From assembly GCF_027497215.1 (NCBI RefSeq), contig NZ_CP114904.1, positions 868,001-932,000 of the forward strand: a stretch of 64,000 nt of DNA, given 5' to 3'. Made by a program: the position numbers and the translations under genes. This stretch comes from Micromonospora sp. WMMD812 (GTDB lineage Bacteria > Actinomycetota > Actinomycetes > Mycobacteriales > Micromonosporaceae). Shown here one piece after another: positions 55,074 to 58,419 of this stretch. The notes under the pieces are model-generated. The model saw only the letters and a list, made by a program, of their open reading frames with translations. It was not told the DNA's origin and made no database searches. Positions within the stretch are counted from its first letter, which is position 1, and every line of letters begins with the position of its first letter.

Positions 55074-55160
55074 GACGAACGTGGTCGCGGGTTTGGGGTC
55101 CGGTGCGCGCGGGGTAGGGCGGGGTCGGAGACCTGACCGCCCCGTGTGGAGGACCGTGAT

Positions 55161-56156
55161 ATGAGAGACAACGTCAGCGACGCGGTGGGGGACGCCTTCC
55201 GCTCGGTGATGCTCTTCGTGCCCAAGGCCGTCGCCTTCGTGGCGATCCTCGTGGCCGGATGGCTGATCGCCAAGGCCGCGCTCAAGATCGTGGACAAGGT
55301 CCTGGAGCGGGTGGGCTTCGACCGCGCCGTCGAGCGCGGCGGCATCCGCCGGGCGTTGAGCCGCTCCCGGTACGACGCCAGCGACATCGTCGCCAAGCTC
55401 GTCTACTACGGACTTCTGCTGGTAACGCTTCAACTGGCCTTCGGCATCTGGGGACCGAACCCGATCTCCGACCTGATCGCCGGCGTGATCGCCTGGCTTC
55501 CCCGGGCGTTCGTCGCCATCGTCATCGTGGTGGTCGCCGCGGCCATCGCCAACGCCGTCAAGGACATCATCGGCGGCGCGCTCGGCGGCCTCTCGTACGG
55601 TCGGGTGCTGGCCACCGTCGCGTACGTCTTCCTGCTCGGCCTCGGCGTCATCGCCGCGCTCAACCAGATCGGCGTGGCCACCGCGGTGACCACCCCGGTG
55701 CTGATCGCCGTCCTGGCGACCCTCGGCGGGATCCTCGTCGTCGGTGTCGGCGGTGGGCTGGTCCGCCCGATGCAGAGCCGCTGGGAGTCCTGGCTGAGCC
55801 GCGCCGAGCACGAGTCCCGGCTGATCGCCACGCACGCGCGGGCGTACCAGGCCGGTCGCCGCGACACGGAGGCCGAACTGTCCCGGCCGGCGGCGGCCGA
55901 CCCGGACCTCACCCAGCCGGTTCCCGCCGATCCGGACAGCACACAGGTGGTCACCCGGCCCGCCGACCCGGACGCCACGCAGGTGGTGCCGCGATCGACC
56001 GACCCGGAGGCCACGCGGGCGGTGCCCCGGTCGACCGACCCGGACGCCACCCAGGTGACCTCGACCGGCTCGCCGGTTCCCGGGCAGCGCGCCGCCGACG
56101 ACAGCGAGGCCACGATGGTCATCCCGCCGGTGGAGCCGCCGACGGAGCGCCGCTGA
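55161..56156 (+). CDS. MscS-related membrane protein with a threonine-rich repeat tail
   Basis: 331 residues. Four or so helices (FRSVMLFVPKAVAFVAILVAGWLIAKAAL; VYYGLLLVTLQLAFGIWG; AWLPRAFVAIVIVVVAAAIANAVKDII; VAYVFLLGLGVIAALNQIGVA) carry the glycine-rich TM-helix repeats of the MscS/'conserved TM helix' family. The beta domain of true MscS channels is missing. The tail from residue 247 contains five units of the type DPDATQVVPRST. GGAGG lies 9 nt before the ATG at 55161. It is probably a membrane protein with a cytoplasmic regulatory tail rather than a canonical tension-gated channel. Confidence 0.8.
   Translation: MRDNVSDAVGDAFRSVMLFVPKAVAFVAILVAGWLIAKAALKIVDKVLERVGFDRAVERGGIRRALSRSRYDASDIVAKLVYYGLLLVTLQLAFGIWGPNPISDLIAGVIAWLPRAFVAIVIVVVAAAIANAVKDIIGGALGGLSYGRVLATVAYVFLLGLGVIAALNQIGVATAVTTPVLIAVLATLGGILVVGVGGGLVRPMQSRWESWLSRAEHESRLIATHARAYQAGRRDTEAELSRPAAADPDLTQPVPADPDSTQVVTRPADPDATQVVPRSTDPEATRAVPRSTDPDATQVTSTGSPVPGQRAADDSEATMVIPPVEPPTERR
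55899..56072 (+). repeat. Degenerate 30-36-bp repeat encoding DPDATQVV units
   Basis: Units start at 55899, 55929, 55965, 56001 and 56037. The last four are 36 bp. Each encodes DP(D/E)xTxxV followed by a P/R/S/T spacer. A related EATMVIPP follows at the C-terminus. Confidence 0.85.
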
Positions 56157-56250: not shown

Positions 56251-56256
56251 TAGCAT
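56251..56256 (+). promoter_or_regulatory. -10 box of a leaderless transcript for the leader peptide
   Basis: TAGCAT matches TANNNT and ends 7 nt before the ATG of the five-codon leader ORF, the spacing seen repeatedly in this window for leaderless genes. No clear -35 box is visible. Confidence 0.6.
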
Positions 56257-56263
56257 CGCGGGC

Positions 56264-56281
56264 ATGACTTGGCGATGTTGA
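56264..56281 (+). CDS. Five-codon leader peptide (MTWRC) upstream of the MFS gene
   Basis: ATG-ACT-TGG-CGA-TGT-TGA encodes MTWRC. It begins where a transcript from the TAGCAT box would start and is followed by an RNA hairpin that covers the MFS ribosome-binding site. The Trp-Arg-Cys codons are uncommon and would be suitable for ribosome stalling or sensing. Translation is inferred, not shown. Confidence 0.55.
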   Translation: MTWRC

Positions 56282-56298
56282 TGCCTCACTAGTGGCCG

Positions 56299-56357
56299 TT
56301 CCCGTGGGCCGCCGCGGGCGCCGTACCTCCGGCGTCCGATTCGTCCCCACGGGAAGG
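56299..56357 (+). promoter_or_regulatory. Ribosome-binding-site-sequestering hairpin (translation attenuator)
   Basis: TTCCCGTGGG (56299-56308) is perfectly complementary to CCCACGGGAA (56346-56355). The right arm contains the GGGAA of the MFS Shine-Dalgarno GGGAAGG (56351-56357). An inner 5-bp hairpin (CGCCG 56319-56323 with CGGCG 56330-56334) fills the loop. The MFS ATG lies at 56362. The structure would shut off initiation unless opened. Confidence 0.65.
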
Positions 56358-56361
56358 CCTC

Positions 56362-57618
56362 ATGACTCTCACCTCCGCGCGCGTGCGCGACCGCGGCGTC
56401 CGCCGCCTGTCGGCGACCCTCTACGGGTACGCGTTCCTCAGCGAACTCGTCCTGCTCTACCCGGTGTACGCGCTGCTGTTCGCCGACACCGGGTTGTCGG
56501 TCTGGCAGATCTCCTCGCTCTTCGTTCTCTGGTCGGCCAGCGCGATCCTGCTGGAGGTGCCCTCCGGCGCCTGGGCCGACGCGGTGTCCCGGCGGCTGCT
56601 GCTGTGCCTCGCGCCGCTGGTGACCGCCGTCGGCTACGCCGTCTGGGTGCTGTCGCCGTCGTACCCGGCCTTCGCCGTCGGGTTCCTGCTCTGGGGCGCC
56701 GGCGGGGCGCTCGCGTCCGGCGCGCTGGAGGCGCTGGTCTTCACCGAGCTCGACCGCCGGGGCGCGGCCGGCCGGTACGCGCGGGTCATCGGCCGGGCGA
56801 AGACCGCCGAGATCCTCGGCGCGCTCGCCTCGACCGCGCTGGCCGGCCCGGTGCTCGCCGCCGACGGCTACCCGGCGGTCGGCGCGGCCAGCGTCCTCGC
56901 CTGCCTGCTGACCGCCGCCGTGGCCACCCGGTTCCCCGAAGACCGCACCACCACGTCGGCCGGCGACGGGGTGGGTGAGGACGACGACCTCGGCTGGTGG
57001 GCGAGCCTGCGCGCCGGCCTGGCCGAGGCCCGTGCCGTGTCAGCGGTGCGCGCGGCGGTGCTGTTGGTCGCCGGGGTCGCCGCCGTCTGGGGCGCCCTCG
57101 ACGAGTACACCCCGCTGCTGGCCCGGGACACCGGCGTCGGCAGCCAGACGGTGCCGCTGCTGCTCCTGCTGGTGTGGGCCGGGGTGACCGTCGGCGGGCT
57201 GCTCGCCCCGGCCTTCGAGCGGCTCACCACCCGGGGGTACGCGGCCCTGCTCGGACTCGCCGCGCTGACCCTGGCCGGTGGCGCGCTGACCGGCCACCCG
57301 GCCGGGTTCGGTCTGATCGCGGTCGCCTTCTGCGCCTGCCAACTCGCCACCGTGCTGGCCGACGCTCGCCTCCAGGCACGCATCGTCGGGCCCAGCCGCG
57401 CCACCGTCACCTCGCTCGCCGGGATGGCCACCGACGTCACGATCATCGGCGTGTACGTCGGCTACGGCCTGGTCGCCACGACCGCCGGCAACGCGGTCGC
57501 GTTCGCCGTCTCCGCACTGCCGTACCTGCTGGTGGCGGTGCTGCTGGTGGCCGTGCGCACCCGAGCGACCGGTCGGCCGCCGGCCGGGCGCACCACGGTT
57601 GTCGGTGGCGGTGTCTAG
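56362..57618 (+). CDS. MFS transporter (drug-exporter-like)
   Basis: 418 residues with about 12 hydrophobic helices. The N-terminal half has ELVLLYPVYALLFADTGLSVWQISSLFVLWSASAILLEVPSGAWADAVSRR, whose SGAWADAVSRR loop is the MFS motif A; the centre is a charged loop (PEDRTTTSAGDGVGEDDDLGWW) and the second half has six helices. It is a proton-coupled permease, most like uncharacterised exporters. The ribosome-binding site is trapped in a hairpin behind a leader peptide, an arrangement typical of drug-inducible resistance genes. The stop codon is part of the next gene's promoter. Confidence 0.88.
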   Translation: MTLTSARVRDRGVRRLSATLYGYAFLSELVLLYPVYALLFADTGLSVWQISSLFVLWSASAILLEVPSGAWADAVSRRLLLCLAPLVTAVGYAVWVLSPSYPAFAVGFLLWGAGGALASGALEALVFTELDRRGAAGRYARVIGRAKTAEILGALASTALAGPVLAADGYPAVGAASVLACLLTAAVATRFPEDRTTTSAGDGVGEDDDLGWWASLRAGLAEARAVSAVRAAVLLVAGVAAVWGALDEYTPLLARDTGVGSQTVPLLLLLVWAGVTVGGLLAPAFERLTTRGYAALLGLAALTLAGGALTGHPAGFGLIAVAFCACQLATVLADARLQARIVGPSRATVTSLAGMATDVTIIGVYVGYGLVATTAGNAVAFAVSALPYLLVAVLLVAVRTRATGRPPAGRTTVVGGGV

Positions 57619-57627
57619 GGTGACCGG

Positions 57628-58419
57628 GTGACCGCGATGAGCTTCGACGGCTGGTGCGACGAGATCGTCGCGCAGGCCGAGCTGATGGCCGCGCACCTCG
57701 CCGGTGCCGATCCGCGCACGCCGGTGCCGTCCTGTCCGGGCTGGACGGTCGGCCAGCTCGTGCGGCACGTCGGCGCCGGGCACCGGTGGGCCGAGGAGAT
57801 CGTCCGCACCCGGGCGGCGACACCGCTGCCCGACACCGACCTGCGTGACCTGTCCGGGCACGCCGACGGCGATCCGGCGATCCTCGCGCCGTGGCTCGTC
57901 GAGGGCGCCGCCCAGCTCGCCGGCACGCTGCGTGCCGCCGGGCCGCGGGCCGAGGTCTGGACGCCGATCCCGGGCCGCACGGACGCCGCCTTCTACGCTC
58001 GCCGCTTCGCGCACGAGACCCTGGTGCACCGGGCCGACGCCGCGCTGGCGCTGGGGGTGCCGTTCGCCGCTGCGGAGCCGGTGGCCGTCGACGCGCTCGA
58101 CGAGTGGATGGAGCTGGACTCGCTGCCGGTCATGCTCGAGTTCAAGCCCGAGCGGCGGGAGCTGCTCGGGCCCGGGCGCACCCTGCACCTGCATGCCACC
58201 GACACCGCGCCCGAGGCGGCGGCCGAGTGGGTGGTCGACCTCACCGGCGAGATCGGCACCTGGCGGCGCGCGCACGAGAAGGCCGCGGTCGCCGTGCGCG
58301 GGCCGCTCACCGAGCTGCTGCTCACCGTCTACGGCCGGCGCCCGCCGCACGACACCGTGCAGGTGCTCGGCGACCGCGGGCTGCTGGAGCTCTGGCTGGC
58401 GCGGGTCAGCTTCGGCTGA
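57628..58419 (+). CDS. Maleylpyruvate isomerase N-terminal (mycothiol/DinB-fold) family protein
   Basis: 263 residues. PVPSCPGWTVGQLVRHVGAGHRWAEEIVRTR is the signature of the MDMPI/TIGR03083 group. The His after GQLVRH, His in GAGHRWAE and the later FAHETLVHRADAAL supply the three metal-ligand histidines of the four-helix bundle. A C-terminal sterol-carrier-like domain (LHLHATD...) follows. Members are mycothiol-dependent transferases; the substrate is unknown. The GTG lies 6 nt after TAGGGT (57616-57621), which overlaps the MFS stop, so a leaderless message from an internal promoter is likely. Confidence 0.88.
   Translation: MTAMSFDGWCDEIVAQAELMAAHLAGADPRTPVPSCPGWTVGQLVRHVGAGHRWAEEIVRTRAATPLPDTDLRDLSGHADGDPAILAPWLVEGAAQLAGTLRAAGPRAEVWTPIPGRTDAAFYARRFAHETLVHRADAALALGVPFAAAEPVAVDALDEWMELDSLPVMLEFKPERRELLGPGRTLHLHATDTAPEAAAEWVVDLTGEIGTWRRAHEKAAVAVRGPLTELLLTVYGRRPPHDTVQVLGDRGLLELWLARVSFG

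Follow-up and report, generated by a model that had tools for sequence, protein, structure and literature searches.

The short leader ORFs that precede a family of MFS exporter genes in actinobacteria mostly end in a conserved UGA, and in one class of these loci, the direct form, comparison of the sequences indicates that this UGA is probably recoded. As a tentative joint reading, to which we give somewhat less than an even chance, we propose that zero-frame readthrough controls an actinobacterial efflux-pump family, acting at a conserved UGA located 2-8 codons past a leaderless start, that this stop would sense drugs disturbing termination or decoding, and that the hairpin form found in Micromonospora sp. 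WMMD812 would be a derived form of this arrangement that works by coupling.

Elements of the locus and conservation of the leader

The locus lies in a window (the whole stretch of DNA analysed) of 64,000 nucleotides from the single-contig, 7.13 Mb genome of this strain, and its elements are the following.

56251-56256, + strand: -10-like element TAGCAT (direct reading)
56264-56281, + strand: leader ORF ATGACTTGGCGATGTTGA, encoding MTWRC* (direct reading; conservation)
56279-56281, + strand: leader UGA, whose counterpart in direct-form relatives is in phase with the exporter
56282-56365, + strand: leader frame past the UGA, open across the hairpin and terminating at the TGA at 56363-56365
56299-56308, + strand: left arm TTCCCGTGGG of the predicted Shine-Dalgarno-trapping stem (reading, fold, covariation)
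56301-56318, + strand: alternative hairpin, 56301-56307 of the left arm with 56312-56318, which excludes the Shine-Dalgarno-trapping stem
56315-56338, + strand: inner hairpin, 56315-56323 paired to 56330-56338 (aligned spacers)
56346-56355, + strand: right arm CCCACGGGAA of the predicted trapping stem, overlapping the Shine-Dalgarno sequence (reading, fold, covariation)
56351-56357, + strand: Shine-Dalgarno sequence GGGAAGG of the MFS gene (direct reading)
56362-57618, + strand: MFS exporter of 418 aa, PF07690 (profile match)

The TAGCAT element ends 7 nt before the leader ATG, the two arms form a perfect 10-bp stem, and the TGA at 56363-56365 overlaps the MFS ATG as ATGA. The sequence-only reading had described the TAGCAT box with its 7-nt spacing, the MTWRC* ORF, the perfect stem and the Shine-Dalgarno sequence in the right arm, and all of them are present where it had placed them; the distance from the leader stop to the left arm, given there as 18 nt, measures 17 nt (56282-56298). 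With up to three mismatches allowed, the leader pattern occurs twice in the window versus 0.26 times expected, the exact match being that at 56264. An Rfam search of the region gave sub-threshold matches only; the best of them, the dauA motif (RF04311), reached 22.9 bits between hairpin and ATG against a gathering score of 45, and was rejected.

The exporter matches the MFS_1 profile at 53.1 bits (cut-off 33.4) and has a distant similarity, far under the cut-off, to tetracycline efflux profiles. Fold comparison returned a generic MFS fold (NorA, LmrP, VMAT and others), and a search for solved structures related to it by sequence gave none of use. Upstream, at 55146-56156, lies a mechanosensitive-channel gene that was found in 90 of 102 loci fetched for the genus; the C-terminus of its product carries repeated PDPDATQV-like units. 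Downstream, about 10 nt past the MFS stop, a gene with an MDMPI domain (mycothiol-dependent isomerase-like) occupies 57628-58419, and the two genes possibly form one operon; an MDMPI-like gene was seen behind the MFS gene in one of the 102 fetched genus loci, in stretches that end soon past the MFS gene.

When the genus was searched with the exporter protein, matches at E <= 0.001 came from 152 of 160 genomes; in 141 the E-value was below 1e-60, and exporter loci were fetched from 137 of these 141 (all except G091, G128, G142 and G144). Among 154 fetched loci with the exporter N-terminus, a set in which some genomes occur twice, other genera are included and some loci were fetched via the leader pattern, a single leader match lies within 300 nt in 148, one locus has two matches and five have none. 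Two of the five carry altered leaders (MNRRH* in L103 and MNWPR* in L110), L113 has a leader before an exporter with an unmatched N-terminus, L126 is degenerate, and L068 is without a leader. Across the fetched loci, codon 2 varies among Thr, His, Ile, Asn and Ser, codon 5 is CAT, TGT, TGG or TTA, the start has GTG and CTG variants, and one stop is TAA; since these changes respect codons, a translated leader is favoured over a plain DNA operator. Furthermore, 235 hairpin-type loci (near-copies counted) give 234 matches to a TANNNT element that ends either 7 nt (178) or 6 nt (56) before the leader ATG. This fixed -10 spacing suggests that the leader is leaderless, with the 5' end of the transcript at the ATG, and lends support to the leaderless five-codon ORF that had been postulated.

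Beyond the genus, searches with the leader pattern gave matches in 127 of 300 genomes of the family, 58 of 348 of the order and 34 of 296 of the class, and many of the matches outside the genus in the family and order searches look like chance occurrences inside genes. A scan of named genomes gave at least 118 stretches, with an exporter downstream in 108 of the 118 listed; the genera among the matches listed include Streptomyces, Kitasatospora, Nonomuraea, Streptosporangium, Herbidospora, Actinomadura, Microbispora and others. Because patterns pick their own sequence, the search was redone with exporter proteins alone, which gave matches in 52 of 276 class genomes and, for the genus of G651, in 48 of 150; all matches except that of G092 were fetched, and the removal of identical loci left 94 distinct loci, the unbiased set. 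A leader was accepted when a TANNNT element is followed, after a gap of 5-9 nt, by an ORF that has no more than 9 codons and lies within 300 nt of the first membrane helix (helix 1). By this definition, a promoter-coupled leader ORF of 2-6 codons is present in 90 of the 94 loci, while in the controls it occurs in 0 of 91 upstream windows, in 3 of 94 reverse complements and about once in shuffles; in the remaining four (L434, L437, L438 and L451) a leader ORF with a variant promoter was recognized by eye. Conservation of the leader upstream of the MFS gene, which the sequence-only reading had presupposed, is thus borne out by this actinobacterial search.

The commonest wording in the unbiased set is MTWRH* (51 of 90 leaders), and the penultimate codon is CGA in 82 of 90. 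The wordings among relatives include MTWRH, MTWRC, MRRRH, MPFP, MPFL, MRWP, MREP, MRFY, MHRH and ML, and the leaders of direct loci include MTWRH, MAWQY, MRHRC, MNRRR, MTRRRH, MRLRRC, MPFP, MPFL, MRWP, MHRH and ML. Literature searches for MTWRH and MTWRC returned only unrelated matches, and in the titles and abstract openings searched the leader-UGA-exporter arrangement was not found. At L214, positions 1501-1518 hold a promoter-like element and an MSWRH* leader with no exporter found downstream, and this is possibly a decayed locus.

Exporters in phase behind the leader UGA

The loci show two architectures. In the hairpin form, a long spacer, mostly of 75-98 nt, holds the stem and the exporter's own start, whereas the direct form has no long spacer and its exporter frame opens right after the leader stop. 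The phase of the 90 unbiased loci was measured without presupposing a frame. In the short loci, with less than 100 nt from the leader stop to helix 1, the exporter is in phase with the leader in 34 of 34 and the stop is TGA in 34 of 34; the 53 long loci (at least 125 nt) divide into 39 in phase 2, 12 in phase 0 and two in phase 1, and three loci are of intermediate distance. Short loci of the pattern-fetched sets are in phase as well (31 of 31). As all 34 short-locus stops are TGA, the four TAA leaders of the unbiased set all belong to the long class.

Altogether, 57 distinct direct loci were gathered. The base after the UGA is T in 40, C in 12, G in three and A in two of them, and the distance from the UGA to helix 1 takes 18 different lengths, from 4 to 39 codons. 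No ATG, GTG or TTG lies between the UGA and helix 1 in 48 of the 57, so that these exporters seem to need readthrough of the UGA; a possible start is present in the other nine. The codons CTG, ATT, ATC and ATA are also absent in 22 of the 57 loci, and are present in 26 of the 48. Behind the UGA, the third codon specifies Pro in 24 of the 57 loci (CCT, CCC, CCG or CCA) and the fourth Glu in 20 (GAG or GAA), with synonymous changes at both positions, and a structure model of one direct-locus protein has a helix from residue 3 after the UGA (mean pLDDT 94.6). The coding composition of the stretch from the UGA to helix 1 is weak, with a GC3 of 0.77 vs 0.94 in helix 1 over 32 loci. Second codon positions differ least, by a modest margin, with values of 0.19 vs 0.43 and 0.45 in a group of 17 loci and of 0.22 vs 0.27 and 0.33 in a group of 12. 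Two direct loci, L425 and L433, carry two in-frame UGAs between the leader start and helix 1.

The direct-form relatives have both features by which a readthrough gene is recognized, an in-phase ORF behind the stop and, in the 48 loci, no other start; the window locus has neither, and because its MFS ATG lies in another phase than the leader and is preceded by a Shine-Dalgarno sequence of its own, it is not counted as a readthrough gene. The annotated start lies at, inside or beyond helix 1 in 16 of 16 family proteins examined in databases, as would be expected if annotation programs find no start codon. The underlying DNA was considered for two of these proteins: P0001 is a full match to locus L238, and in P0006, apparently from locus L454, the first codon would be a CTG. 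P0001 and other family entries look N-terminally truncated.

The hairpin form and its relation to the direct form

The window locus combines two features of attenuators, a short leader ORF before the gene and a hairpin predicted to sequester the Shine-Dalgarno sequence. Folded as a single strand, 56264-56400 gives the trapping stem with a modest z of -2.1, and 4 of 200 shuffles fold equally well. In 26 aligned spacers, hand-picked from 44 non-redundant references of similar length, 81.7 per cent of the cells are paired in the trapping stem plus inner hairpin, against at most 50.1 per cent when the partner is slid, and 74.7 per cent in the outer stem alone; seven pairs are changed on both sides, and the covariation score was reached by none of 500 shuffles. 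These compensatory changes speak for the trapping hairpin put forward by the sequence-only reading. The core stem is perfect in 27 of 54 non-redundant loci (62 less the eight without the core motif), the shuffled mean being 14.9 and the maximum 23 in 2000. The alternative helix between the left arm and 56312-56318 has some support and is perfect in 22 of the 54 loci, under the shuffled maximum of 25 (mean 14.1); that a second fold of this kind might be needed had been anticipated, and it does exist.

With near-copies included, the leader frame reaches the exporter start without a further stop in 216 of 235 hairpin loci, compared with a mononucleotide-shuffle expectation of 167, and the other two frames are open in 192 and 146. 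Among in-phase hairpin loci the leader frame is open into the exporter in 79 of 90, and among those in the window's phase it ends in ATGA in 118 of 133. In raw counts, an A follows the exporter ATG in 124 of the 133 loci of the window's phase vs 52 of 90 hairpin loci; ATGA was rejected as phylogenetic evidence, the kinship-corrected link with phase being non-significant (11 independent pairs, median p 1). A second stop directly follows the leader stop in five hairpin-type loci (L084, L250, L367, L426 and L429), and the leader stop is TAA in four of 235, so that at these loci readthrough is unlikely to be needed.

An exporter tree of 73 rows (30 direct, 43 hairpin) implies at least seven changes between the two forms, also when well-supported branches alone are counted. 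The deep groups are direct, and all hairpin rows fall within one group of 49 that includes six direct rows, in two of which (L220 and L260) a possible start codon lies past the UGA. As the root is merely the midpoint, the direct-first direction is one reading of this tree, under which the hairpin form of the window may be the derived, coupled version of the gate.

A proposed readthrough gate and its alternatives

On balance we lean slightly towards regarding the region as a translational gate on a leaky UGA, likely opened by antibiotics that disturb termination or fidelity. For the window copy in particular, readthrough plus coupling seems to us evenly poised between true and false, and we give equal weight to either answer as to whether the inducer is an antibiotic. 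What the comparison establishes is the sequence and how far it is conserved, the phase relation across the UGA, the absence of alternative starts and the covariation of the hairpin; the following course of events, like the inducer and the substrate of the pump, is conjecture. Transcription would begin at the leader ATG, and by default ribosomes would make MTWRC and exit at the UGA, with the hairpin hiding the Shine-Dalgarno sequence of the exporter. Under slow termination at the UGA, or under error-prone decoding, a fraction of the ribosomes would decode this codon as sense and go on into the left arm, unzipping the hairpin before they stop at the TGA that overlaps the exporter ATG; the exporter could then be started. 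In the direct-form relatives, readthrough of the UGA would yield the exporter itself, since the frame continues in phase and mostly no other start is present. The likely trigger would be an antibiotic that acts on the ribosome and either slows release or increases readthrough, which would fit an efflux output. The steady MTWR[HC] wording is left unexplained by readthrough alone.

The mef/msr(D) and erm systems likewise employ a short leader-peptide ORF and control by RNA structure. The present locus resembles the mef/msr(D) systems in having a short leader ORF before an efflux gene and putative RNA-structure control, and differs from both mef/msr(D) and erm in leader sequences and stall logic; to our knowledge, neither has in-phase direct relatives. 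In excerpts of a review (PMC5009743), telithromycin is described as inducing frameshifting on the ermC leader, after which ribosomes translate the spacer and unfold the mRNA, and the resistance gene starts. In the mechanism proposed here, ribosomes would also pass the normal end of the leader, translate the spacer and unfold the mRNA; unlike in ermC, they would do so by passing an in-frame UGA rather than by frameshifting, the gene concerned is one for efflux, and many relatives have leader and gene in a common phase. According to the same excerpts (PMC5009743), an early in-frame UGA in the RF2 gene can sense termination capacity by +1 frameshifting, and no RF2 gene combines such an early UGA with a second ORF in the same frame. 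A UGA early in the coding sequence as a possible termination sensor is common to both cases, whereas the direct relatives continue in frame 0 behind the UGA and not in +1, on which account RF2-type frameshift autoregulation was rejected. In an E. coli reporter study, amikacin is reported to increase the readthrough of stop codons, and azithromycin to do so more strongly. This report and that on ermC and telithromycin, neither of which concerns the present family, render it plausible that a drug could open a gate placed ahead of an efflux gene.

For the window copy, the main rival, which we hold to be unlikely though worth serious attention, is erm-type attenuation: with a drug-bound ribosome stalled on MTWRC, either at its Arg codon or at the stop, the left arm would pair with 56312-56318 instead, and the Shine-Dalgarno sequence would be freed. 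The steadiness of the leader wording and of the penultimate CGA is in its favour, loci with tandem stops or TAA require no readthrough, and the alternative left-arm helix that it needs has some support, yet this helix is perfect no more often than shuffling can produce. However, the arm begins 17 nt past the stop, which, given the size of the ribosome footprint, is probably outside the reach of a stalled ribosome, the leaders of relatives differ widely, and the 48 startless direct loci have no ATG, GTG or TTG to free, so that stalling alone cannot express them. Of the earlier proposal that a drug-stalled leader opens the hairpin, the existence of an alternative fold stands, whereas the distance of the arm and the startless direct loci make the stalling itself doubtful.

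The direct loci might instead be expressed without readthrough, from a non-standard start codon or by reinitiation after the leader. Nine of the 57 offer an ATG, GTG or TTG and a further 26 a CTG or ATH codon, and P0006 apparently begins at such a CTG, yet 22 loci offer none of these, and reinitiation needs no phase, whereas the short loci are in phase without exception in both sets; we consider this explanation improbable. Reinitiation at an NTG overlapping the stop (TTGA) was rejected, as its frame is not that of the exporter in direct loci and is open in only 146 of 235 hairpin loci. That the UGA encodes selenocysteine is barely credible: among nine genomes tested the selB cut-off was reached in three and that for tRNA-Sec in five, but G651, G739, G800 and G730, all with direct loci, are under both cut-offs, and with the machinery missing in four of eight direct-locus genomes tested this candidate was rejected. 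Just as faint is the prospect that Trp, Arg or Cys starvation is sensed through the leader codons, as the sequence-only reading had suggested. All three residues occur in MTWRC, but relatives carry MPFP*, MPFL*, MRWP*, MREP*, MRFY*, MHRH* and ML*, and the fifth residue becomes His, Trp or Leu within the genus; such variation of wording makes sensing of Trp/Arg/Cys-tRNA supply unlikely. The conserved stretch sits at the presumed transcription start point, where a DNA operator could lie, but its changes are codon-wise (a free codon 2, TGA to TAA, ATG to GTG) and no palindrome is seen by eye, and we regard an operator as very improbable.

If the readthrough gate proposed here is real, stop-codon readthrough would itself report antibiotic stress, without a regulator protein or any single arrest peptide, and such a readout would span many families of antibiotic-producing bacteria. 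Readthrough of a start-proximal in-frame UGA has been considered for release factor 2 and, as far as the excerpted review goes, was not found there (PMC5009743). It would also follow that the first membrane helix can be missing, in part or entirely, from database entries of the family, and these loci would provide a ready reporter of termination fidelity in actinomycetes.
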